From Clostridia bacterium (GTDB lineage: Bacteria > Bacillota > Clostridia > Christensenellales > Borkfalkiaceae): DNA of 40,098 nt. The stretch is from assembly GCA_017457225.1 (NCBI GenBank), contig JAFTHW010000031.1, forward strand, positions 1-40,098, written 5' to 3'. The position numbers and the translations under genes were made by a program. Under the pieces are notes generated by a model that saw only the letters and a list, made by a program, of their open reading frames with translations, searched no databases and was not told the origin of the DNA. Position 1 is the stretch's first letter; each line of letters opens with the position of its first letter. Below, piece after piece: positions 9,171-28,375 of this stretch.

Positions 9171-12100
9171 CTATAAACCGTTAAAAGTTAAAGCAAATTT
9201 TAAAAATTTCGTCATTTTTGCCATTAGATGCGCCGAATCGCGCGTTCCGGAAAACTCAATCACGGGCGCTTCCGTCATATTGAAACGGACGTCGTCTTTG
9301 TATTTGTCCATCGCCGCCAAAACTCCTTTAGAGCCGATCGACTCCAACGACGGGAACTGCAACGAGCCAAGCGCACCCGAAACCGCAATTTTTTCCACGT
9401 TGAATTTTGCAGCGTAATTTTTAAGCACGGCAATAACCATCAAATTCTCCGTCGCCTTAGGCACGTCGCCGTACGTTTCGGTAAGCGAAGCGTACACGCG
9501 CTTATAATCCGCCACCGAAGAAATTTCCGCAATCTGTTTATAACAATCCAATCTGCCAGCGGAGGACTCCACGTATTTTTCGGAAATATACGCGTTGGCG
9601 CGAATATCCAATTCCGCGGTCGTTTGCCGTTCGCCCGTCAACTCTTCTTTTAAGAGTTTGGAATACAATTCGTAACCCACTCTGTCCATATGCCCGTGCT
9701 GTTCCGCGCCGAGCACGTTCCCCGCGCCGCGAATCTCTAAATCTCGCATCGCGAGTTTGTATCCCGATCCTAGTTCAGTAAACTCCATAATCGCCTTGAG
9801 TCTTGCCGAAGCGTTCGACGTCATCACTTTTTCCGCTTTGAACGTAAAATACGCATACGCCAATCTAGAGCTCCGCCCCACGCGTCCACGGAGTTGATAA
9901 AGCTGAGAAATTCCCAAACGGTCGCTGTCGATAACGAGAATGGTGTTCGCATTCGGCAAATCAATCCCGTTTTCAATGATTGTCGTCGTAATCAGTACGT
10001 TGGATTTTCCGCTGTAAAAATCGTACACTGCGTTTTCGAGAACGGTTTTGTCCATTCTACCGTGCGCCACCGAAACCGTTGCTTCGGGTATGATCTGTTT
10101 AATCCTCGCCGCGAACGTAAAAATACTCTCCACTTTGTTATAGAGAATAAACACTTGACCGTCACGGGACAATTCCCGTATGCACGCGTCTCGGATCAAC
10201 GTTTCCGTTTCCTCCACAACATAGGTCTGCACGGGCAAACGTTCCCCCGGCGGAGTTTGAATCGTCGAAATATCCCGTATTCCCGAAAGGGACATATGCA
10301 ACGTTCGGGGAATGGGAGTCGCCGTCATCGTAAGACAGTCGATATTTTTTCGTAAATGTTTGATTTTTTCTTTATGTTCTACACCAAACCGCTGTTCCTC
10401 GTCCAATACAAGCAATCCTAAATCTTTGAACTTAACGTCAGAGGAAAGCAAACGGTGCGTACCGACTACGAGATCGATGCTTCCGTCGGCAAGTCCGTCC
10501 AAGATCCTGCGCTGTTCTTTGAGCGTATTGAAACGGTTTAAACAAGCCACGCGAACGCCGAACTGCGAAAATCTCGCGCAAGCCGTATTGAAATGTTGAC
10601 TGCTCAAAACGGTACTCGGACACATCAAAGCCGCTTGTTTCCCCGCCAACACACAAAGATATACCGCGCGGAACGCAACCTCGGTTTTACCAAACCCCAC
10701 ATCGCCGCAAAGCAAACGGTCCATCACTTTATTCGACGACATATCTGCCTTGATCTCTTCCACCGAGCTTGCTTGATCGGGAGTTAAATCATACTCGAAC
10801 GCATCTTCGAACTCCCGCATAAACACTTCGTTCTCTGGGAAAGGATACCCCGTATTTTCCGCTCGTTCAGCGTATAACCGCTTTAAGTCAAACGCCAATT
10901 TTTTAAGGGACGCTTTAACCCTCGCTTTGACTCGCTCAAAATCCGCGCCACCGATTTTACTCAACGTAGGAGCGGCGTCGCCAACGTACTTGGACAGGGA
11001 ATCCATACTTTCCGCAGGAACGTATAACATATCTCCGTCTTTATACGAAACCGCGACGTATTCTTTCGTACCGTCCGTCGTTTCGATCTTTTTCATTCCC
11101 ACGGCTTTTCCGATACCGTGCGTTTCGTGGACGACGAAATCCCCGACTTCGGGCGCGGAGAACATATCACCGCGTTTGCGACGGAGCCTTTTGTTCGTGA
11201 TCGTTTTCGTGTATAAATCCCCTGCCCCTAACACGGCGAGCTTGCATTCGTGCAGGACCATACCCTTATCCAATTTTCCCTCGGATATGCAAACTCCTGT
11301 AAACTCGGATAAGGAGTCGGGCAACTTAACGGTGGAAATATACTCTTCGGCAAGGCTTTCCGTCATTTTGACCGCGCGGGATTCTTCGCCGCAATAGAGC
11401 ATCACTCGATATCCGCCGCGAAGCCAATTTTGAATATCCGTCACAAGCGCAGAGAGTCCGTTCAAATACCTCGCCGTCGGCGTAAACTTGAAATTGTAAA
11501 TTTTTAAGGGCTGGAAAAAGAACGGGTTGCCTGTAAACACCTGCAACGCAACCCGACGTTGGTGCAAGATTTTCTCTAAAAACTCGGCTTTTTCTATATA
11601 CTGTTTGCGAGTAAACTCAAACGCTTCTCCGCCTGATTTTAAACGGTGAAACCGTTCCTCGTGCTCCTTGTATAAGGCGTTGAATTTATCCCAAAGTTCT
11701 TTCCCTTCGTCAAAGACCAAAACGGCGTTGTCGGGCAATACCGAAAATACATCCGTCGCATTCTCCAATAAGGGCATCACGTACGACGAATCGGGAATCT
11801 CCATCGAAAGAATTTCGTCTTTGATCTCCGTTCCTCTTGCGTACGCTTCGGAAGTCGTAAATTTTTTCACTCCGTCCGTCAAAGCCTTTTCTATACGAGC
11901 TTTATCCAACTCCGAAACCACGACGTCGGTCGCCGAAAGCACGGTGAGTTCTTGGACAGTGGAAAGCCGATTGCCCGTGACAAAATCGTAGGGTTTGATC
12001 TTCTCTACCGAATCCCCGAAAAAATCTATTCTGACGGGATTTTCCGCGTTCACGGGATAGATGTCGAGAATATCGCCGCGGAGCGCAAATACGCCTTTCG

Positions 12101-19231: not shown

Positions 19232-20800
19232 TTATAACATCGGCGCAAAAATTCGTACGATCGCGCGGATCGTTCTTTGCAAGATATTCGTCTTTACGTT
19301 TTCGGGAAGAATCTCTATGCTTTTGTCCATCGTATCCAGCATATCTTCTTTCACGTCTTGTAAACACTCCGCTTTATAGAGCCAAACTCCGTTTTCAAAA
19401 TGATGCACAAGGCTTCTGTAATCAAGATTGATCGTACCGATCATAGCGGCTTCATCGTCAAATAAATAGCATTTTGCGTGCACGAATCCCGACTCGTATT
19501 CGTATATCTTCACGCCAGCTTTCATCAACCGCTCGTAAAACGTCTTCGTCATTTCAAAAACGAGCTTTTTATCGGGAATATGCGGAACGATAATCCGCAC
19601 GTCCACCCCTTTGATCGCCGCATTTTCCAGCGCCAAACACATATCGTTGTCAATGATCAAATACGGAGTCATCATATACGCGTACCGCTTCGCGTTCGCC
19701 AACATATCCACGAGCAAACTTTGCGCGACTCGACGGGGATACATCGGACGAGGTCCATCCCCAAACGGGATCAAATATCCCTGCTCTTGGATCTCCGTTT
19801 TCGGGAACAGGATCTCGGCGTCGGGATTGATTGGCAATTCTTTGACGTTGAGTCCGAAATCGATCAAAAACAGCTTAGTCAATTCGTACACGGCTACGCC
19901 CTCCAAACGAATCCCCACGTCTTTCCAATGCCCGAAACGCTGGGTTTTATTTACGTACTCGTCGGCAATATTCACGCCGCCCGTATATCCGATTATCCCG
20001 TCGATCACCGTGATTTTTCTATGCGAGCGATTGTTGAATTCGTTATTTGCTTGCCCTTTCAATCGGGAAAACGGAGTTGCTTTTATCCCAAACGTACCGA
20101 GTTGTTTTGCATAATTCCCGGGAAGCGTACTCATGCACCCCACGTCGTCAAACACCACGCGAACGTCCAATCCTGCCGCCGCTTTTTGCTTGAGAATTTC
20201 AAGGATCGAATTCCAAAACACCCCTTCCTCGATGATAAAATATTCCATATAGATAAACTTTTCCGCGCGCTGTAAATCGGCGAGCAAGCTTTGCCACATC
20301 TCTTCGCCGAGCCGAAAATACGTCTGCTTCGTATCGCGGAATAAATGACCGCCCGATAACGAGCAAAGCAATTTTGCTTGGTTGTAAGCCCCCTCACTCT
20401 CCTCCGACAACGCTTTAAAGTTTTCTTCGTCCTTTTCGGGATAACGCTCGTCGTAAAGCTTTTTCAACCGACGGACGTATTTCTTGCTAAACGACCTCGA
20501 ATAAAAGATAAAGTACAGCATAAACCCGACGACGGGTAGAATGAGTACGAACAACAACCACGGGAGTTTATATTCGGGATTGTCGTTGGACGCAATGATC
20601 TTGATCACGCAAAAGATCTCCGTAGCCCACGCCGCCAAATAGAAATACGGCACGAAATAACAAAGTGCGCCCAAAATTCCGATGATCGACACCACCTCGA
20701 AAATTGTGATCATTACGGCAACAATGTATCGGACGGGAATATAGTTATATTCCCGTTCAATTACTTTCTTCCCTGCTTTATAGGAATGTTTCTTTTTCAT
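19232..20800 (-). CDS. cls: Cardiolipin synthase
   Basis: 522 residues. Two N-terminal transmembrane segments, then two phospholipase-D HKD motifs: H-R-K-I-T-V-I-D with GG-N downstream, and H-A-K-C-Y-L-F-D-D with G-T-I-N-L-D-Y-R-S. It joins two phosphatidylglycerols into cardiolipin at the membrane. The start is ATG 20800, with GGAG at a suitable distance; an in-frame TTG at 20815 overlaps that ribosome site. It lies 53 nt after the coiled-coil gene and is probably part of the operon read from 21564, which would place cardiolipin synthesis under the two-component system next door (inference). Confidence 0.95.
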   Translation of the reverse strand: MKKKHSYKAGKKVIEREYNYIPVRYIVAVMITIFEVVSIIGILGALCYFVPYFYLAAWATEIFCVIKIIASNDNPEYKLPWLLFVLILPVVGFMLYFIFYSRSFSKKYVRRLKKLYDERYPEKDEENFKALSEESEGAYNQAKLLCSLSGGHLFRDTKQTYFRLGEEMWQSLLADLQRAEKFIYMEYFIIEEGVFWNSILEILKQKAAAGLDVRVVFDDVGCMSTLPGNYAKQLGTFGIKATPFSRLKGQANNEFNNRSHRKITVIDGIIGYTGGVNIADEYVNKTQRFGHWKDVGIRLEGVAVYELTKLFLIDFGLNVKELPINPDAEILFPKTEIQEQGYLIPFGDGPRPMYPRRVAQSLLVDMLANAKRYAYMMTPYLIIDNDMCLALENAAIKGVDVRIIVPHIPDKKLVFEMTKTFYERLMKAGVKIYEYESGFVHAKCYLFDDEAAMIGTINLDYRSLVHHFENGVWLYKAECLQDVKEDMLDTMDKSIEILPENVKTNILQRTIRAIVRIFAPML

Positions 20801-20822
20801 AATTGTCTCCGACAAAAGGCTA

Positions 20823-20853: not shown

Positions 20854-21165
20854 TTATTTGTTGTTCTTTGCGGTTTCGTAACGTTCGTTCGCCGCCGCCG
20901 TTCTCTCTTTCGCTCTAGCAATCTGGGCTTCTCTTTCTTCCTGCGCTTTTAACGATCTTTCCTCAGGACTCATATGCGCGTCGTCCCAACTCTTTTTCGC
21001 ATCCGCTTTTGCTTTTGCATACGTGTTGCGACCTCTGTTTTCTTCAAAGTTTGCTTTGGATTCCGCTTTCACCGCTTCCAAATTCGCCTTGTCAACCTCG
21101 TGCTGCGCTTTCGCGCTTTCTTTCATATCTGAAAATGCTTTTTTAAAAAATTCTTTTACTCCCAT
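20854..21165 (-). CDS. Small charged coiled-coil protein, function unknown
   Basis: 103 residues, very rich in Ala, Lys and Glu with heptad-like spacing through most of its length (K-A-Q-H-E-V-D-K-A-N-L-E-A-V-K), no Cys, no membrane segment. A strong AAGGAG precedes the ATG. It follows the small membrane protein gene by 20 nt and precedes cls, so it belongs to the predicted stress operon. It might be a soluble helix-rich envelope-stress protein (inference). Not assigned to a family. Confidence 0.8.
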   Translation of the reverse strand: MGVKEFFKKAFSDMKESAKAQHEVDKANLEAVKAESKANFEENRGRNTYAKAKADAKKSWDDAHMSPEERSLKAQEEREAQIARAKERTAAANERYETAKNNK

Positions 21166-21185: not shown

Positions 21186-21530
21186 TTATTTATTCAACAG
21201 ACTGTCCGAAAGCTCGAAAATCTGTTTAGAATACTTGTTTTTTCTCGATTTTAAAATCGCTTTATAAATTGGATACGTCGTGGAGATCAAAGCGATACCA
21301 ACCACTCCGATCACGACGCCGAGCCCCATACTGCTTCCAATGAGCTTCATCGCCATAGTCATTCCCGTTCCCAATACGAGCGATGAGATTGACCCGTACG
21401 CATACGCGAAGATTTTCGCGGGATGGCGCGCTCTTTTGTCCAATGCTTTCAACTCGTCGAATTTCGTCACCTCGCAAGGCGTATAATTCGCGCGGATTTT
21501 TTCAATGACCGCCGTTTCTGTTTTTATCAT
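21186..21530 (-). CDS. Small membrane protein, paralogue of the gene at 25286
   Basis: 114 residues: a cytoplasmic N-terminal helix (I-E-K-I-R-A-N-Y-T-P), two transmembrane segments, and a basic C-terminal tail K-S-R-K-N-K-Y-S-K-Q-I-F-E-L-S-D. It aligns along its whole length with the 125-residue protein at 25286-25663 (I-R-x-x-Y, Y-P-x-Y, K-Y-x-x-x-I). Start ATG 21530 with GGAG; an earlier in-frame start would fall inside the promoter. First gene after the phased operator-promoter at 21564-21639. Function unknown; similar small proteins occur beside Clostridia ABC and two-component loci. Confidence 0.85.
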   Translation of the reverse strand: MIKTETAVIEKIRANYTPCEVTKFDELKALDKRARHPAKIFAYAYGSISSLVLGTGMTMAMKLIGSSMGLGVVIGVVGIALISTTYPIYKAILKSRKNKYSKQIFELSDSLLNK

Positions 21531-21563: not shown

Positions 21564-21639
21564 ATTATACACAAGAAATGTTTAAAAAACGCTAACGTTT
21601 TGTCAATGGTTTGAAAGTGTTTTGTAAACATTTTGTTAA
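21564..21639 (-). promoter_or_regulatory. Operator-promoter with six hexamers at 11-bp spacing
   Basis: Read on the minus strand: TTAACA (21634-21639), TTTACA (21623-21628), CTTTCA (21612-21617), TTGACA (21601-21606), TTAGCG (21590-21595), TAAACA (21579-21584), each exactly 11 bp apart, then -10 TATAAT at 21564-21569. The -35 position (GCGTTT) is poor, as expected for an activator-dependent promoter. Direct repeats of TTnACA-N5 are typical of OmpR/PhoP-family regulators. Confidence 0.82.
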
Positions 21640-21664
21640 CACCGCTTTTTTCTGTTGGCAGGTT

Positions 21665-22486
21665 TTAAACCAGACTCGTTTTCTTCAACACCACATTGCT
21701 AATCGCTCCAAGCCCCACGCTAAACAATCCGCCGCCCACAAAACTTAACAAAACGTTGAGCACTCCCGCATCGAGAGGCGCAACCATAGGCGCAATGTTG
21801 AAGAGGAACATACCCACCCCGAACGATAATAAAATGGAAAGCCATACTTTTTGTTTCGCGATCACGCTCATCAATGCGTAGATAGAAACGAAAATAGGCA
21901 CGAGGAAGATTTTCGCAAGCATACTCGCCACTAAATTCCCGACGTCAAATCCTGTCATTGTAAAGGGAAGTCCTGCAATCGCGCCGCCGAGCATCGAGCC
22001 GACGAAGAACGCCAACAGCATACCCGCGCCGCCCACGAAACATACGACCGTTTTAGAAATTACGTAATCGGTTTTTTGAGCGCGAACGGTAAACAGGTTT
22101 TTCGCGTAACCGCTTCTAAAGTCGTCTCCGATAAACACGCAAACGAGTACGCAAACGGCGAAATACATCATATGGATATTACACATACTGACAAGATCCA
22201 TACTCATTGCCGCGCTTCCTTCGCTCGCTTCTCCGCCGCTCACCGCGCCGAGAATCTGCCATATGTTGTCAAAGCCTTGCATAGGTTCGGACGGTAAACC
22301 CGTTTGCGGATTTACGGTAACCGTACCGTCCATCATCGTAGTCATTACGAGAATTAAAATGGGAACGACAAACGAAATACCGATCATAATATAGAAAAAC
22401 GGAATCGTCAACATTCTTCTCGAGTCTACTTGAAGCATACTCTTCAGTCTTTTGGAAAACGTTTGTTTCTCGAATTTCTTTTCCAT
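21665..22486 (-). CDS. ABC transporter permease (BcrB/LanE-like), second pair
   Basis: 273 residues with six predicted membrane helices; a large outside loop after helix 1 is rich in Met, Gly and Asp. The cytoplasmic segment I-G-D-D-F-R-S-G-Y-A-K-N-L-F-T matches the coupling region seen in the paralogue (I-G-H-D-Y-K-S-G-Y-V-K-Q-L-F-T). These permeases pair with BcrA-type ATPases in peptide-antibiotic or lantibiotic defence. It starts 1 nt after the stop of its ATPase. The substrate cannot be read from sequence. Confidence 0.9.
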   Translation of the reverse strand: MEKKFEKQTFSKRLKSMLQVDSRRMLTIPFFYIMIGISFVVPILILVMTTMMDGTVTVNPQTGLPSEPMQGFDNIWQILGAVSGGEASEGSAAMSMDLVSMCNIHMMYFAVCVLVCVFIGDDFRSGYAKNLFTVRAQKTDYVISKTVVCFVGGAGMLLAFFVGSMLGGAIAGLPFTMTGFDVGNLVASMLAKIFLVPIFVSIYALMSVIAKQKVWLSILLSFGVGMFLFNIAPMVAPLDAGVLNVLLSFVGGGLFSVGLGAISNVVLKKTSLV

Positions 22487-22487
22487 C

Positions 22488-23390
22488 TTATTTCGCCCCC
22501 TTTTGATTCATAAGATCGATGTAGTATTCTTCCAAACCGATTTTTGCCGTTTTGATCTCGGTGATCAAAATTCCATTCTCGTACAAATACGTTACGATCT
22601 CTTCGGGAGTTTTTGCATCATACACACGCAAGTACCCGCTTTCGTCTTCTTCCACTCGGGAATATTTACGCTCGAGCAACCCTTTAGAGTTACGCATATC
22701 TTTTGCTTGGAGCGCAACGAACGTACGACAGCTCGCCTCCAACTCCTCCGCCGTCATTTCGGCGATCATCTTACCGCCGCGAACGATCCCGTAATGGGTG
22801 GCGATCTTTTCAAGCTCCCCTAAAATATGGGAAGAAATAAGGATCGTACTGCCCTTTTTCGCAATATCCACGAGCACTTCTCTCATAATACGCATACCGT
22901 CTGCGTCCAAGCCGTTGATCGGCTCGTCAAGAACGAGTAGTTCTGGATTCCCAAGCAGCGCCATTGCAATTCCGATACGCTGTTTCATACCAAGCGAGCA
23001 ATTTTTATATTTATTTCCCGCCGCGCCTTCCATACGGACAAGCTGTAAGATCTTTCTGATTTCTTGTTCGGGATTGGGAATACATAAATTCGCCGCTTGC
23101 AACATTAAATTATTCCACACGCTGTAATTGGGGAAACAACCGGGATCTTCAATCAATACGCCGATCTTTGCCCGCACGTCCGCATCGGTATAATCCCTAC
23201 CGAACAGCTTGACTTCGCCACCGCTCGGATGAATCAATCCGCAAATGATTTTTTCCGTCGTGGATTTACCACTACCGTTCTCCCCGATAAAGCCGTAAAT
23301 ACTCCCTACGGGTACGGTCATATTTAAGCCCTTTAACGCTTGCTTTTCCCCAAAATTTTTCGTTAAATTTCTAATTTCTATCGCGTTCAT
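22488..23390 (-). CDS. ABC transporter ATPase (BcrA/LanF-like), second pair
   Basis: 300 residues. Walker A G-E-N-G-S-G-K-S-T, signature C-S-L-G-M-K-Q-R, Walker B L-L-V-L-D-E-P, switch His in SSHILGELE, and the long C-terminal tail typical of BcrA-like proteins (E-E-Y-Y-I-D-L). Closely similar to the ATPase at 24205-25122, so the pair arose by duplication. GAGGAG precedes the ATG; it lies 15 nt after the first permease gene. Confidence 0.95.
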   Translation of the reverse strand: MNAIEIRNLTKNFGEKQALKGLNMTVPVGSIYGFIGENGSGKSTTEKIICGLIHPSGGEVKLFGRDYTDADVRAKIGVLIEDPGCFPNYSVWNNLMLQAANLCIPNPEQEIRKILQLVRMEGAAGNKYKNCSLGMKQRIGIAMALLGNPELLVLDEPINGLDADGMRIMREVLVDIAKKGSTILISSHILGELEKIATHYGIVRGGKMIAEMTAEELEASCRTFVALQAKDMRNSKGLLERKYSRVEEDESGYLRVYDAKTPEEIVTYLYENGILITEIKTAKIGLEEYYIDLMNQKGAK

Positions 23391-23405
23391 TTTTCATTTC
23401 TCCTC

Positions 23406-24218
23406 TTAATACACGTCGCTTTTAGAAAGTAGATGCGAACCAAGCACATTATAAATGCCGCACCAAGCCACGGACACAATCAAACATACAAGCACGGTGA
23501 GTATATTACTCGACAAACAAGCGTACACGGACGCGCCGTACAAGAATACGTTCAGAAGAGGCGAATTGCCTGCTGCCGCCGCAATCCCTACGATCAAGAT
23601 CCCCGTACCGAAGAAGAACGACGAAGCTATGGAAATCCCGAAATATTTTCGGAAAATAACGTTCAGGAACGTATATAAACTTGCCCAGCCCAAGCTCATA
23701 ATTATTTTACCGAGTATCGCGCAGATCAACGAGCCGACGTTTACTTGAAAGGAAGTTTTCGCAAAGAGTCCCGCCCCGACGCCGCCAAGCAGATACGTAA
23801 GGCACATACAAGCCATCGCGAACGCGCATACCAAGGTTTTGGAGATCATATAATCTTCCTTTTTTGCGTGCGTGGTGAACAGCTGTTTTACGTAACCGCT
23901 CTTATAATCGTGTCCGATAAAGATCGAAACCATAATTCCGCCGAAAATGAATACCATATTCATATTCGCATATTCGGCAATATCGGAAACCGCATACAAC
24001 GGAGTTTCCGCCGCAACGATATGCCACGTGTTGGTATAAAGCTGTTCCGCTCCTTCCATCCCCATCGTTCCGAGGATCATCGCAGGAATGACCGCGGCAA
24101 TCCCCAAAAAAATATAAAACAACGGCGTATGGAATAAACGGTAAAAGTCTACGCCGAGCATTCCTTTAATCCTTTTCAAAAAGCTCGGAGATTCAAATTT
24201 CAATTCACGCGTTTGCAT
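23406..24218 (-). CDS. ABC transporter permease (BcrB/LanE-like), first pair
   Basis: 270 residues, six predicted membrane helices, paralogue of 21665-22486. Two ATG codons 9 nt apart could start it. AAGGAG is only 2 nt from the one at 24227 but 10 nt from the one at 24218, so 24218 is preferred. It overlaps the end of its ATPase gene by 14 nt, which suggests coupled translation of a heteromeric exporter. Confidence 0.9.
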   Translation of the reverse strand: MQTRELKFESPSFLKRIKGMLGVDFYRLFHTPLFYIFLGIAAVIPAMILGTMGMEGAEQLYTNTWHIVAAETPLYAVSDIAEYANMNMVFIFGGIMVSIFIGHDYKSGYVKQLFTTHAKKEDYMISKTLVCAFAMACMCLTYLLGGVGAGLFAKTSFQVNVGSLICAILGKIIMSLGWASLYTFLNVIFRKYFGISIASSFFFGTGILIVGIAAAAGNSPLLNVFLYGASVYACLSSNILTVLVCLIVSVAWCGIYNVLGSHLLSKSDVY

Positions 24219-25122
24219 AGTCTTCATTCTCCTTTTTACTCATTAGTTCGATATAGTATTCTTCCAAGCCGATTTTGTTCTTTTTGATCTCGCTGACCAC
24301 GTGTCCCCGTTGATACAAGTATTCCACGATTTCCTCCGTATCGTCTACGTCGTACACGCGAACGTAACCGTCTTCCGAGCGGACGCTTTTGAATTTCTCT
24401 TTCAAGACCTTTTCCGCCGCCTGCATGTCTTCGGTTTTCAAAGACGTAAATACGCGCGCCCGCGCTTCCATCTCCTTCGCGCTAAGCTCCTGTATCATCC
24501 TGCCTTGACGGATAATTCCGTAGTGCGTGGCGATCTTTTCGAGTTCGCCCAAGATATGGGAAGAAATGAGCACCGTACAACCGTAGGTCTTGGTGATATC
24601 CACCAAAATCTCGCGCATAATCCGCATTCCGTCCGTATCCAAACCGTTGATCGGCTCGTCCAAGATAAGTAACGCAGGATCACCGAGCAACGCCATCGCA
24701 ATCCCGATTCTCTGTTTCATACCAAGCGAACAGCTTTTGAATTTGATTGTCGCCGAATCTTCCATACGGACGATCTTCAATACGCGGTTAATTTCTTCGT
24801 CAGGATTTTCAATGCCTAAATTGATTGCTTGCATCATTAAGTTTTGATACACGCTCGAGCCGGGAAAACAGCCTGCGTTTTCAATCAACGCGCCCACTCT
24901 CACACGGACTCCCGCATCGGTATAATCTCTACCGAACAGCTTGATTTCGCCTCCGTCGGGTACGAGATGTCCGCAGATCAATTTTTCCGTCGTGGATTTA
25001 CCGCTACCGTTCTCCCCGATAAAGCCGTATATACTGCCTACGGGAACGGTCATATTCAAATGGTTGACCGCATACATACCGCGGAAACTCTTGGAAAGGT
25101 TTCGGATTTCAATAGCGTTCAT
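24205..25122 (-). CDS. ABC transporter ATPase (BcrA/LanF-like), first pair
   Basis: 305 residues with Walker A G-E-N-G-S-G-K-S-T, C-S-L-G-M-K-Q-R signature, L-L-I-L-D-E-P Walker B and the S-S-H-I-L-G switch. First gene of the four-gene ABC operon; AAGGAG lies 8 nt before the ATG and the phased operator-promoter at 25158-25233 lies directly upstream. Likely role: exporting or sensing cell-envelope-active peptides (inference from family and context). Confidence 0.95.
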   Translation of the reverse strand: MNAIEIRNLSKSFRGMYAVNHLNMTVPVGSIYGFIGENGSGKSTTEKLICGHLVPDGGEIKLFGRDYTDAGVRVRVGALIENAGCFPGSSVYQNLMMQAINLGIENPDEEINRVLKIVRMEDSATIKFKSCSLGMKQRIGIAMALLGDPALLILDEPINGLDTDGMRIMREILVDITKTYGCTVLISSHILGELEKIATHYGIIRQGRMIQELSAKEMEARARVFTSLKTEDMQAAEKVLKEKFKSVRSEDGYVRVYDVDDTEEIVEYLYQRGHVVSEIKKNKIGLEEYYIELMSKKENEDYANA

Positions 25123-25157
25123 AAATAAAACTCCTTACTTTTTCAATTTGCAAATTT

Positions 25158-25233
25158 ATTTTACAAGATAAATGTTTAAAAAACGCTAACTTTATGTTTT
25201 TAAAACGTTTTAAATTTGTAAAAGAATTGTTAA
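25158..25233 (-). promoter_or_regulatory. Operator-promoter of the ABC operon, same layout as 21564-21639
   Basis: Minus strand: TTAACA (25228-25233), TTTACA (25217-25222), AAAACG (25206-25211), AAAACA (25195-25200), TTAGCG (25184-25189), TAAACA (25173-25178), all 11 bp apart, then -10 TAAAAT at 25158-25163. The block TTAGCG to TAAACATTT is identical to that in the other promoter, and the -10 sits at the same offset. Confidence 0.83.
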
Positions 25234-25252: not shown

Positions 25253-25283
25253 AAAAAAGAACTCAGTCGCCTGAGTTCTTTTT
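25253..25283 (-). terminator. Terminator of the two-component operon
   Basis: Perfect 13-bp stem AAAAAGAACTCAG/CTGAGTTCTTTTT with a TCGC loop and T run, 3 nt from the stop of the last gene of the operon. Confidence 0.95.
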
Positions 25284-25285
25284 CT

Positions 25286-25663
25286 TTATTGTATCACTTC
25301 GTCGCAAAGCTGTAATATTTCTTCTCCGTACTTTCGTTTGTTCCTATTTAAAATCCATTGATACAACGGATACGCGCCTATCATAGGGATTCCGCCGAGA
25401 ACCGAAACCGCAATACCCCAAAAGAGTAAATTCCACTCCAAAACCATTGCCATTCCCAATCCGAAAATCAAACATCCTACGATGCCTATAATCAAAGCGA
25501 CGCAGGTTGCGGAATTATATACCTTTGCATTCAAATACCGCAATCTGTCCATTTTCGTTTGAACCTTTTCGGGAGCAACGTATTGTCTTCGGATGCTCTC
25601 TATTTCTTTACGTTCCGACTCCGTAGGCGCCGAATACGTATAATTGAATTCTTTGTTATTCAT
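25286..25663 (-). CDS. Small membrane protein, paralogue of the gene at 21186
   Basis: 125 residues: an amphipathic N-terminal helix (I-E-S-I-R-R-Q-Y-V-A-P-E-K), two membrane segments, basic tail N-R-N-K-R-K-Y-G-E-E-I-L-Q-L. Last gene of the operon that starts with the response regulator; overlaps the previous gene by 8 nt; AAGGAG before the ATG. Having a paralogue in the co-regulated operon suggests an accessory part of the same response (inference). Function unknown. Confidence 0.86.
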   Translation of the reverse strand: MNNKEFNYTYSAPTESERKEIESIRRQYVAPEKVQTKMDRLRYLNAKVYNSATCVALIIGIVGCLIFGLGMAMVLEWNLLFWGIAVSVLGGIPMIGAYPLYQWILNRNKRKYGEEILQLCDEVIQ

Positions 25664-26582
25664 TCCCTTTCTCCTTTCGCAATTCCTTGATTCTCTTGTT
25701 CCCCCGAACGATCATAAATACGCTGAGCACGATACAGCCGCAGCTTACCACGCTGCCCGCTAATGTATTGTATACGGAAATATTCATACCCTCCGTTCCG
25801 AACGTATGCAAAAGCGCTGTTTGTAGAGCCAAAACAGACACCGCCGCTGCCACAAGATTGATCGCGCGGATTCCCTCAATCGTCAAATCGTCCTGACTCT
25901 TTGCCTTGAATACGTTATAAATGGACATCGTTACTTTATAAAATGCGTATGCGGCGTACGCATAGATCGTCCAGCTTGGATACGAAAACGACTGGTCGTC
26001 GAAAATCATTTGCGCGATCGCCGACGACAACACGATGTTGAGCATTAGCAACACCCAACCGCAATTCCGATACTTGAACGCCTGCGCCGTTTCCACGTCT
26101 TCGTCGTTCATCGAACGTTTCCGTCTATGATACAACAACATTCCGCCGCGTAAAACTGCCAAGAATACGTAATATGCCGCGAGCGCGCCGTACCAAATGG
26201 ATTTTTCCATAATCCCCAACACGCCGTTAAACGCGCCGTACGCGATACTGAGCGTAAACGAGCCGATTGCAAATATCACCGTTCTGAACCCGTAATCCCG
26301 CATCATAGCGCCGGTGAACGCGTTCTTTTGCAATCCGTTTTTTACCCCTTCTTTCCATTTTGGAAAAAACAATACGATCGTGTAAACGGTGTACGCCAAC
26401 GTGATTGCCGCCGCCGCAAACAAAGCGTAAGCGACCACCGAAAGCCAACTCTTTTCATAATCCAAAAACAAAATGCCGATCGCTCCGCCAATGGAAAGCG
26501 CCGTGGCAACGTACGCAATCCAGAGAACCAAGCCCGACGGATTTTTTAACTTTTGTAGGAACTTCCGCCAATTAAACTTCAT
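25656..26582 (-). CDS. Polytopic membrane protein of unknown function
   Basis: 308 residues with about eight hydrophobic helices, a basic N terminus (M-K-F-N-W-R-K-F) and a basic C terminus. No catalytic motif seen. It overlaps the histidine kinase gene by 11 nt, so it is co-translated with the two-component system and may be a sensor partner or accessory membrane protein (inference). GAGGA lies before the ATG. Confidence 0.82.
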   Translation of the reverse strand: MKFNWRKFLQKLKNPSGLVLWIAYVATALSIGGAIGILFLDYEKSWLSVVAYALFAAAAITLAYTVYTIVLFFPKWKEGVKNGLQKNAFTGAMMRDYGFRTVIFAIGSFTLSIAYGAFNGVLGIMEKSIWYGALAAYYVFLAVLRGGMLLYHRRKRSMNDEDVETAQAFKYRNCGWVLLMLNIVLSSAIAQMIFDDQSFSYPSWTIYAYAAYAFYKVTMSIYNVFKAKSQDDLTIEGIRAINLVAAAVSVLALQTALLHTFGTEGMNISVYNTLAGSVVSCGCIVLSVFMIVRGNKRIKELRKEKGNE

Positions 26583-27630
26583 TTGCCGTTCCTCTCAACA
26601 CAACGGTAAAGGTACTCCCTTTTCCCGCTTCGCTTTTTACCGAGATCTCTCCGCCGAGAATATCGATCACTCTTTTCACGAGCGCAAGACCGAGTCCGTT
26701 TCCCTCTTGGGAATGGGACGTATCCCCTTGATAAAATTTTTCAAAGATACGCGCCCCCTTTTCGGGAGAAATTCCACAACCTGTATCCGAAACTTTGACG
26801 ACTGCGTCCAAACCCTCTTTTTTGAGCGTAACCTCGACCCTGCCCCCCGTTTCGGTAAATTTTACTGCGTTGGAAAGTAAGTTATTCCAAACCAACTCCA
26901 AAAGCGGCTTTGAGGACGTTATCCACACGTCATCCAAATCACATTCCAACACTAGATTTTTCGTTTCGATGATCTCTTCGTATTGCAAGACGGAAGAGGC
27001 AAGCTCTTCGGTCAAATGCAACGTTTCGTATTCGGGTTTGACTTCTTGATTTTCGAGTTTATTGAGTTTCAAGATATTCGTGATTAAATCGGACAAGCGT
27101 TTGGACGCTTGCGACAACGTTTTTGCATATTTTTTACGCGAGTCGGAATCCAACGTGTCGTCTTGTAACAACGTTGCGTAATTATGAATGATCGTCAACG
27201 GAGTTTTCAATTCGTGAGAAACGTTGGAGATAAAATCGGTTTTTAAAACTTCCGTTTTCCCCAGCTCTGCCGCCAACGTATTCAAGTTTTCCATAATCAC
27301 GTCGTATTCGGTATATTTACCGTACGGACGCGTGATCTCCAAACGTACGGAAAAATCCCCCGACGCTATTTTTTCCGTTGCCTGCAAGATCCGATCTACA
27401 GGTTTGTCGATCATCCATCTCCGCCTAATGATGTCGATCAAGGTACAAGCCCCCGATAAGAGCACGATGACGACGAGCATCAAAAGCGCAATCAGCGGTT
27501 TGTTGTCTGTCTTCTGCGCGATATAATCGTAGAGCATAACCGCAATTTGAATCATCAAAGCGATGGAAACAAAAAACAGCGCCGCGCCCGCAAAGGAGAA
27601 TTTGCTGCTTCTTACGCCGTTCTTCTTCAT
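26572..27630 (-). CDS. Sensor histidine kinase
   Basis: 352 residues. Two transmembrane helices (about 13-36 and 45-68) with a very short extracytoplasmic loop, HAMP-like linker, HisKA with phospho-acceptor His139 in S-H-E-L-K-T-P-L, and HATPase motifs N-N-L-L-S-N-A-V-K-F, D-T-G-C-G-I, F-E-K-F-Y and G-N-G-L-G-L-A-L-V-K. The tiny external loop fits intramembrane-sensing kinases, which usually take their signal from a neighbouring ABC transporter or membrane protein. Start overlaps the regulator stop (ATGA). Confidence 0.95.
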   Translation of the reverse strand: MKKNGVRSSKFSFAGAALFFVSIALMIQIAVMLYDYIAQKTDNKPLIALLMLVVIVLLSGACTLIDIIRRRWMIDKPVDRILQATEKIASGDFSVRLEITRPYGKYTEYDVIMENLNTLAAELGKTEVLKTDFISNVSHELKTPLTIIHNYATLLQDDTLDSDSRKKYAKTLSQASKRLSDLITNILKLNKLENQEVKPEYETLHLTEELASSVLQYEEIIETKNLVLECDLDDVWITSSKPLLELVWNNLLSNAVKFTETGGRVEVTLKKEGLDAVVKVSDTGCGISPEKGARIFEKFYQGDTSHSQEGNGLGLALVKRVIDILGGEISVKSEAGKGSTFTVVLRGTANEV

Positions 27631-28298
27631 TTCAACACCGCCTTATAACCAAGCCCGTGCACCGTCACGATTTCAAAGCCGTCGCACTCCGCCGTCTTTT
27701 CACGGATCTTCGCCATATACACGTCCACCGTTCGAGAAGTCGCGGAAGAATCATAATCCCAAAACTCGTCCATCAACGCCGAGCGAGTAAATGTCTTTTT
27801 CGGATAAGAAAGCAATTTAAAAAGAAGATCGAATTCCCGTACCGTCAGGGCAATTTCTTCCCCGTTGACCGCCGCCAAGCGTTCCTCCGTGTTCATCGTA
27901 AAATTCCCGATGCGAAGCTCTTTCTCCGAATGAATCTTCGCTCGCCGCAAAACCGCCGCGATCTTCATGATCAACTCGTCCACGTCGAATGGTTTCACTA
28001 CGTAATCGTCGATCCCCAAGCTGTATCCGAGCAGTTTTGACGTCTTCTCGTCTTTCGCCGACATAAAAATGATGGGAACGCTTTGATTGAATTTACGGAC
28101 ATTTTCCGCAAAATCGAAACCGTCCATATTCGGCATCATTACGTCCGTCAAAATCAAATCGAAATTGGTCTGTTCCGTTTGCGCCAAGCCCTCCGCTCCG
28201 TCAACGCACGAAATGACTTCATAGCCCTTGCCACGCAAACAGGCGCATACCAAACGATTCAGATCTCTATCGTCTTCTACTACAAGAATTTTTGCCAT
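27627..28298 (-). CDS. OmpR/PhoB-family response regulator
   Basis: 223 residues. Receiver domain with acidic pair near residues 8-10, phospho-acceptor Asp52 (L-I-L-T-D-V-M-M-P), Ser80 and Lys102 (V-V-K-P-F-D). The C-terminal winged helix has T-V-R-E-F-D-L-L and S-R-T-V-D-V-Y-M-A-K-I-R. GGAGAG before the ATG. It is the best candidate to bind the 11-bp-phased TTnACA boxes found upstream of itself, of the ABC operon and of the cls operon. Confidence 0.96.
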   Translation of the reverse strand: MAKILVVEDDRDLNRLVCACLRGKGYEVISCVDGAEGLAQTEQTNFDLILTDVMMPNMDGFDFAENVRKFNQSVPIIFMSAKDEKTSKLLGYSLGIDDYVVKPFDVDELIMKIAAVLRRAKIHSEKELRIGNFTMNTEERLAAVNGEEIALTVREFDLLFKLLSYPKKTFTRSALMDEFWDYDSSATSRTVDVYMAKIREKTAECDGFEIVTVHGLGYKAVLK

Positions 28299-28321: not shown

Positions 28322-28375
28322 ATTGTAATCTTTTTGTATTAGAATTAAGTTTATGAATTGTAAAAATATTGTAAA
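28322..28375 (-). promoter_or_regulatory. Possible autoregulated promoter of the two-component operon
   Basis: Minus strand TTTACA (28370-28375), TTTACA (28359-28364), TAAACT (28348-28353), 11 bp apart, then a possible -10 TACAAT at 28322-28327 with no good -35. It shares the repeat unit of the two larger operators but not their full array. Confidence 0.55.

Follow-up and report, generated by a model that had tools for sequence, protein, structure and literature searches.

Two promoters in a draft Clostridia genome are each preceded by six hexamers that follow one another at exactly 11 bp, which raises the question of what protein reads such long rows and what it controls through them. The window, that is, the whole 40,098-nt stretch analysed here, is contig JAFTHW010000031.1 of assembly GCA_017457225.1. 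The two promoters lie 3.6 kb apart in it, both on the minus strand, in front of a four-gene ATP-binding cassette (ABC) exporter operon and an operon for the small membrane protein DUFA, the charged protein S103 and a cardiolipin-synthase-like protein (CLS). We propose, with a probability of about 0.8, that both arrays serve as operators for the response regulator (RR) of the OmpR/PhoB family encoded nearby (27627–28298, minus strand), whose dimers would activate both operons.

The first array (21579–21639, minus strand) is a candidate operator of three dimer sites for the DUFA–S103–CLS operon, and the second (25173–25233, minus strand) a candidate of the same size for the ABC operon. Read on the minus strand from the distal end, the boxes of the first are TTAACA (21639–21634), TTTACA (21628–21623), CTTTCA (21617–21612), TTGACA (21606–21601), TTAGCG (21595–21590) and TAAACA (21584–21579), and those of the second are TTAACA (25233–25228), TTTACA (25222–25217), AAAACG (25211–25206), AAAACA (25200–25195), TTAGCG (25189–25184) and TAAACA (25178–25173). 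The −10 hexamers TATAAT (21564–21569, minus strand) and TAAAAT (25158–25163, minus strand) both lie 9 nt past the last box, and the best −35 at 16–18 bp matches TTGACA at only one of six positions at both promoters. A sequence-only reading of this DNA had described six hexamers at exactly 11 bp at two promoters, an equal distance to the −10 and a poor −35; its coordinates are correct and all three features hold. It had further set the TTAGCG block apart from the usual two-box site. Treating TTAGCG-TAAACATTT as a separate element was rejected, because it occupies box register 2–1 from the −10 and is instead a degenerate proximal pair in the same 11-bp register. Among the 47 aligned arrays of A3, this box reads exactly TTAGCG in 16 and begins with TT in 41.

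The arrays are real and not a product of chance. A pattern of the four fixed boxes with at most three mismatches has two matches in the window against none in 100 shuffles, and it finds no more than these same two places in the draft genome (1,379,883 bases, completeness given as 92%), where the reversed-pattern control finds none. Measured against a plain chain of six TTWACA hexamers spaced by 11 bp, the two arrays reach 30 and 28 of 36; the best score in the window at 9, 10, 12 or 13 bp is 27, so that within the window this score separates the arrays only slightly and the case against chance rests on the pattern search and on relatives. R1, a model of sequence only that was built from 47 arrays, gives 56.5 bits for the first array and 38.5 bits for the second in the window. 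On the opposite strand R1 scores 13.6 bits at 21576–21635 (plus strand), the first array being partly palindromic. The two array promoters are 77% alike over 79 bp, and the ABC ATPases and permeases look by eye like duplicates, as they might if the promoters merely shared a recent functionless duplication; this account is already contradicted by the arrays persisting in other genera although their spacers have diverged, and at genes on other contigs, and it is almost certainly wrong.

The sequence-only reading counted two operator sites, but the window has three. The third is a candidate operator at the regulator's own promoter (28337–28375, minus strand), where a strong dimer site at 28375–28359 (TTTACA 28375–28370 and TTTACA 28364–28359) is followed in register by two poor boxes, TAAACT (28353–28348) and CTAATA (28342–28337), and then, 9 nt past the last box, by the −10 TACAAT (28322–28327, minus strand). 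Its score with the six-box model R1, 10.5 bits, is the same as that of an unrelated place at 10328–10361, and the case for it comes from relatives, which support a four-box form. The core dimer TTWACA-N5-TTWACA has three copies in the draft genome, one at each of the three locus promoters. A diacylglycerol-kinase-like gene (PF00781; 28378–29292, minus strand) lies directly upstream of RR and ends where this operator begins.

Conservation was assessed in a family sample of 201 genomes and a class sample of 291, both including the own genome; RR orthologs in the family sample are matches with at least 257 bits and at least 54% identity. The strict four-box pattern, again with at most three mismatches, occurs in 11 of the 201 family genomes (own included), and RR orthologs are found in 72. 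We fetched 80 loci around RR matches in family genomes (the match G102:C126 is not among them) and dropped nine of these before counting (L115–L123; identity at most 51%, no cassette). The common gene order at the fetched loci is RR, histidine kinase (HK), the membrane protein MEM308 and the small membrane protein DUFB, often with DUFA next. A second collection came from scanning a contig collection of 84,980 species with a DUFA alignment and taking the best 80 of 282 relatives; these 80 are mostly from uncultured Clostridia, many annotated as animal gut, and some are named Candidatus Borkfalkia (Christensenellales in the NCBI taxonomy), Gallimonas, Coproplasma or Scatosoma. First-sample promoter counts dropped protein matches starting after residue 20 and required at least 100 nt upstream. 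Pooled counts dropped matches starting after residue 25, RR below 54% identity and ABC ATPases below 50% identity, required at least 110 nt upstream, counted promoters identical between both collections once and included the window, which gave 102 distinct promoters of DUFA, 17 of the first ABC ATPase (ATP1) and 110 of RR.

Four-box chains at 11 bp, called at 20 or more of 24 matches, precede DUFA in 71 of 102, ATP1 in 10 of 17 and RR in 49 of 110 pooled promoters (32 of 41, 7 of 12 and 31 of 71 in the first sample alone), and at none of the nine remaining spacings between 7 and 16 bp does any of these three sets have more than one such chain. The 11-bp chains are absent before HK (0/102), DUFB (0/116) and MEM308 (0/82) and before the other ABC genes (PERM1 0/15, ATP2 0/15, PERM2 0/16), and one precedes S103 (1/54). 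The sequence-only reading would have fallen had relatives kept the genes and lost the boxes; relatives retain the boxes.

To describe the arrays we counted boxes from the −10, fixed at 9 nt, and took a box as occupied at a 5/6 match or better. A −10 could be placed at this distance in 100 of 102 DUFA, 15 of 17 ATP1 and 94 of 110 RR promoters. Placement was by score, and some picks are wrong by eye (L058, L127, L155, L185), which is why several box callers are reported side by side. At DUFA promoters the occupancy of boxes 1 to 6 is 0.32, 0.17, 0.59, 0.72, 0.69 and 0.65, with 0.01 at box 7; at RR promoters that of boxes 1 to 4 is 0.16, 0.48, 0.81 and 0.83, with 0.00 at box 5; and off-register boxes reach 0.01–0.02. 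Six boxes are thus typical of targets and four of the RR promoter, and in both cases the array ends sharply upstream. In DUFA and RR promoters alike the weaker box pair is the promoter-proximal one, over the missing −35, and the conserved core of the boxes is ACA. No placed promoter has a −35 at 16–18 bp better than 4/6, and this value is reached in 8 of 100 DUFA, 1 of 94 RR and 0 of 15 ATP1 placed promoters.

Most arrays have an even number of boxes. The good box lying farthest upstream is box 6 in 64, box 4 in 24, box 2 in 1 and odd or absent in 11 of the 100 DUFA promoters; box 6 in 8, box 4 in 5, box 2 in 1 and box 8 in 1 of the 15 ATP1 promoters; and box 4 in 71, box 2 in 11, an even box from 6 to 10 in 6 and odd or absent in 6 of the 94 RR promoters. 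A strict caller, which cannot return 1, yields six boxes in 58, four in 6 and an odd number in 4 DUFA promoters (34 below threshold), six in 7 and four in 4 ATP1 promoters (none odd, 6 not called), and four in 43 and two in 13 RR promoters (none odd, 54 not called). Even numbers therefore make up 131 of 135 arrays with the strict caller, and 186 of 206 with a loose caller, several of whose listed odd cases carry one spurious extra box. On control promoters the loose caller returns 0 of 102 for HK, 3 of 116 for DUFB and 0 of 82 for MEM308. In a free-spacing six-box fit, which covered 93 of 119 promoters and forced some shorter arrays to six, 7 of the 93 arrays slip to 10 bp at the dimer border separating boxes 4 and 5, and at any other gap a slip is seen in no more than one array at penalties 3 and 4 and in no more than two at penalty 2. 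These properties bear on whether a specific protein is needed at all, because boxes and spacers are A/T-rich and recur close to the helical phase, as would intrinsic bends or UP elements made of phased A/T runs. For such elements one would not expect a conserved core of ACA in place of an A-tract, a period of 11 instead of 10, box numbers that are mostly even, or other promoters of the same cassettes without arrays, and we hold this explanation to be highly improbable.

The arrays follow the regulator across genomes. R1 matches at E ≤ 1e-5 occur in 53 of the 201 family genomes, 50 of them with an RR ortholog, and 126 genomes have neither (Fisher p ~4e-26, phylogeny not corrected for). We inspected 29 R1-matched loci, picked mainly for being off the regulator's contig; 14 of these precede DUFA, 5 ATP1, 3 S103–CLS and 7 other genes that were named by eye, and 18 of the 22 inspected arrays off the RR contig precede DUFA, ATP1 or S103–CLS. 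At one of these loci (L219) DUFA starts 64 nt past the array match. DUFA-type genes that are not tied to the regulator have no array in any of 25 cases, of which 23 are from genomes without a cassette-type RR and two are second copies in array genomes; left out of this set were G051 and G191, with no RR detected and with cassette genes and arrays on broken contigs, and G163, where DUFA stands at the contig start with no upstream DNA. On this count we rejected the idea that arrays are part of every DUFA-type promoter. The untied promoters (L252–L276) share another element, roughly AAAT(A/C)(A/G)ACR followed after about 12–16 nt by TTGTTG or TGTTG and then the −10, which is present in 20 of 24 array-less DUFA promoters (L274 left out; the pattern was written after looking) and may serve as an operator through which another regulator controls this gene family.

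The window RR has receiver and winged-helix domains (PF00072, 98.2 bits; PF00486, 68.4 bits; both above cut-off), which together with the paired direct repeats at 11 bp bears out the earlier assignment of the arrays to an OmpR/PhoB-type regulator. In an alignment of 113 family and 16 class-level orthologs, Arg189, Val191, Asp192 and Arg199 of the recognition helix are invariant wherever aligned (112 family and 16 class-level rows); Tyr194 is conserved in 105 and 15 of these rows, respectively. The adjacent RR, already named as the candidate by the sequence-only reading, is probably the ligand, since arrays co-occur with its orthologs and sit at its own promoter. Another regulator could bind them instead, for example a protein encoded on contig C31, the one Trans_reg_C protein detected in the draft genome besides the window RR. 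The C31 protein belongs to the same DNA-binding family as the window RR, and one genome (G048) has an array without a detected ortholog of the latter. The arrays at the RR promoter, their co-occurrence with RR orthologs and their absence from untied DUFA-type genes all point to the window RR, and make a different ligand very unlikely.

Several observations weigh against so close a tie and so regular an array. R1 matches at E ≤ 1e-5 are missing from 22 of the 72 genomes with an RR ortholog, the co-occurrence is partly circular because R1 was trained on regulator- or DUFA-linked loci, and the association tests ignore phylogeny. Three array genomes lack a detected RR ortholog: in G021 the contig begins inside the kinase gene, G191 has MEM308, DUFB and DUFA with no RR detected, and G048 is unexplained. 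The reversed control of the core dimer gives two places in the own genome against three, so that the placement of the dimers is telling and their copy number is not, and the strict pattern read backwards also matches in 2 of the 201 genomes. One array (L146) clearly has five boxes, and RR and DUFA promoters do not always pair as four and six.

Two loci in other genomes show related box rows. In G053, which has no ortholog among the matches listed, TTTACA-like boxes recur every ~10–12 bp at L248 (1917–1991), followed by a −10 and a 220-aa membrane protein; this row is without the usual weak proximal pair and may belong to another OmpR-type regulator. In G062 a full six-box array precedes, by eye, a 449-aa acyltransferase-like protein (L242, 79–154), and the eight R1 matches at E ≤ 0.05 in this genome suggest that the regulon may be larger there.

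We propose that the phosphorylated RR binds each 22-bp box pair as a head-to-tail dimer, as in PhoB (PMC4415409), a mode of binding that the mostly even box numbers would support indirectly. Dimers would load side by side, on the strong distal TTWACA-N5-TTWACA first and then towards the promoter, until the last one settles on the weak boxes (here TTAGCG-N5-TAAACA) and covers the missing −35; its end, 9 nt from the −10, would contact sigma and transcription would start. The RR promoter would take two dimers and the targets three, so that switching on the targets should take more active regulator than autoregulation, and the dimer number would set the order, regulator first and effectors later. 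The same RR could also repress, its dimers over the −35 blocking RNA polymerase until released under stress, and the proximal pair does overlap the −35 region. A bare promoter with no consensus −35 should nevertheless be weak, and the strict 9-nt gap to the −10 would suit an activator that replaces the −35, which makes repression unlikely compared with activation by RR dimers. The signal may be envelope or antimicrobial-peptide stress, as suggested by ABC-2 exporters nearest to the lantibiotic-protection type, by CLS and by a kinase whose outer loop is, by eye, very short; we infer an envelope-defence regulon.

Among 65 family loci in which both promoters were called, the RR and DUFA arrays have four and six boxes in 37, two and four in 5, four and four in 4, two and six in 3, and other combinations in 16; the DUFA array is longer in 54, equal in 8 and shorter in 3. 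The four-versus-six relation is mostly a family-wide constant, and only the correlation between the two lengths (Spearman 0.40, p 0.001, no tree correction) speaks for their moving together. Across the class sample RR matches above 257 bits occur in 17 of 291 genomes (own included), and R1 matches at E ≤ 1e-5 in two, the own genome and G366. Read directly, regulator loci outside the family show shorter arrays. There, 11 of 16 RR promoters have two boxes, the 9-nt gap and a −10-like hexamer (at least 4/6), and 7 of 16 loci have at least one four-box site at 9 nt, against a mean of 0.1 of 16 in 20 shuffled rounds. Two of these four-box sites immediately precede DUFA relatives, and three stand ahead of small membrane proteins of other kinds. 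Just three loci (L280, L289, L292) combine a two-box RR promoter with a four-box site, L281 doing so with a weaker box, so that a one-versus-two-dimer relation outside the family is thinly based. That targets carry exactly one dimer more than the RR promoter, usually three against two in the family and two against one in other Clostridia families, and that array length is a conserved, dimer-counted dial changing in whole 22-bp dimers, is a tentative idea that we think possible but doubtful. If true, the cell would raise the regulator first and then its costly membrane defence.

Long 11-bp arrays are known from ArcA and PhoB, and those described here are therefore a variation on a known kind. 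A PhoB site stands in for the −35, and the PhoP and WalR sites of B. subtilis repeat TTWACA-N5, or the reverse complement of this motif, with an 11-bp period. PhoP and WalR serve other regulons, and the window RR falls below the YycF model cut-off. The nearest measured precedent is E. coli ArcA, also an OmpR/PhoB-family regulator, whose sites have two to five direct repeats, mostly 11 bp centre to centre (66 sites with two, 27 with three equally spaced and 14 with four); extra repeats alter footprint length and concentration dependence, and weak repeats at some promoters fill at higher concentration (PMC3798270). Against this background the arrays are less unusual in length than the sequence-only reading supposed. 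Three repeats are frequent among ArcA sites, whose location and architecture vary (PMC3798270), whereas the arrays here are mostly even (two, four, six), are fixed 9 nt from the −10 and differ in number by gene role.

Each PhoB site consists of two direct repeats of 11 nt, its loading is hierarchical and cooperative, and the regulator gene is autoregulated (PMC4415409, PMC6194859). The paired 11-nt direct repeats and, by prediction, the hierarchical loading and the autoregulation are shared, but the PhoB half-site is TGTCA and the targets here, an ABC exporter, small membrane proteins and CLS, are not phosphate genes; the window RR scores 187.5 and 163.6 bits with PhoB models whose cut-offs are 270 and 296.2 bits. 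At a locus of another genome (L249) one weak R1 match precedes, by eye, a PstS-like gene. CprABC/CprRK-type systems (PMC5786555) likewise set a two-component system beside an ABC exporter, and the best NCBIfam match of the window ATPases is the lantibiotic-protection subfamily TIGR03740 (207.8 and 197.3 bits against a 309.75-bit cut-off). CprABC has one ATPase with two permeases, whereas the present locus has two ATPase–permease pairs together with MEM308, DUFA, DUFB and CLS. BceAB has one large permease, of 626–651 aa in three published examples (PMC5786555), and the permeases here have 273 aa. Filing the locus as a Pho, Cpr or Bce system was rejected on model scores, permease size and gene set, and no description of the regulon was found in the titles or abstracts listed by searches of the open-licence literature. 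The novelty lies in how long the arrays are, in their box numbers being mostly even and in the additional dimer on targets. Sequence alone would supply an uncharacterised Clostridia regulon with its regulator, its targets and the grammar of its operators. Natural promoters that carry one, two or three dimer sites, always at the same position, offer a ready-made series, which would make the role of extra response-regulator dimers (threshold, steepness, timing) directly testable.

The genes of the locus all lie on the minus strand. Upstream of the ABC operon the transcription order is RR, HK (26572–27630; Pfam HisKA and HATPase_c; by eye, two apparent membrane helices flank a short loop), MEM308 (25656–26582; 308 aa, no match above Pfam cut-off, conserved beside RR–HK) and DUFB (25286–25663; 125 aa). 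DUFB has no family at E ≤ 0.001 and is, judging by its match to the DUFA profile, a distant relative of DUFA. The ABC operon consists of two ATPase–permease pairs: ATP1 (24205–25122; PF00005), the first gene after the second array, the first ABC-2 permease (23406–24227; PF12730), the second ATPase (22488–23390; PF00005) and the second ABC-2 permease (21665–22486; PF12730). DUFA (21186–21530), the first gene after the first array, is taken to start at the ATG at 21530, and its relatives in alignment A1 begin at about the same residue. It is followed by S103 (20854–21165; 103 aa, no family match), which has its own array ahead in three inspected relatives, and by CLS (19232–20815), a phospholipase D protein with PF13091 and PF13396. 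Relaxing the E threshold in Pfam searches yielded nothing of use for DUFA, DUFB, MEM308 or S103. Between DUFB and the second array, a hairpin AGAACTCAG-GCGA-CTGAGTTCT with a T run (25254–25280, minus strand) looks terminator-like by eye, which should leave transcription of the ABC operon to its own promoter.

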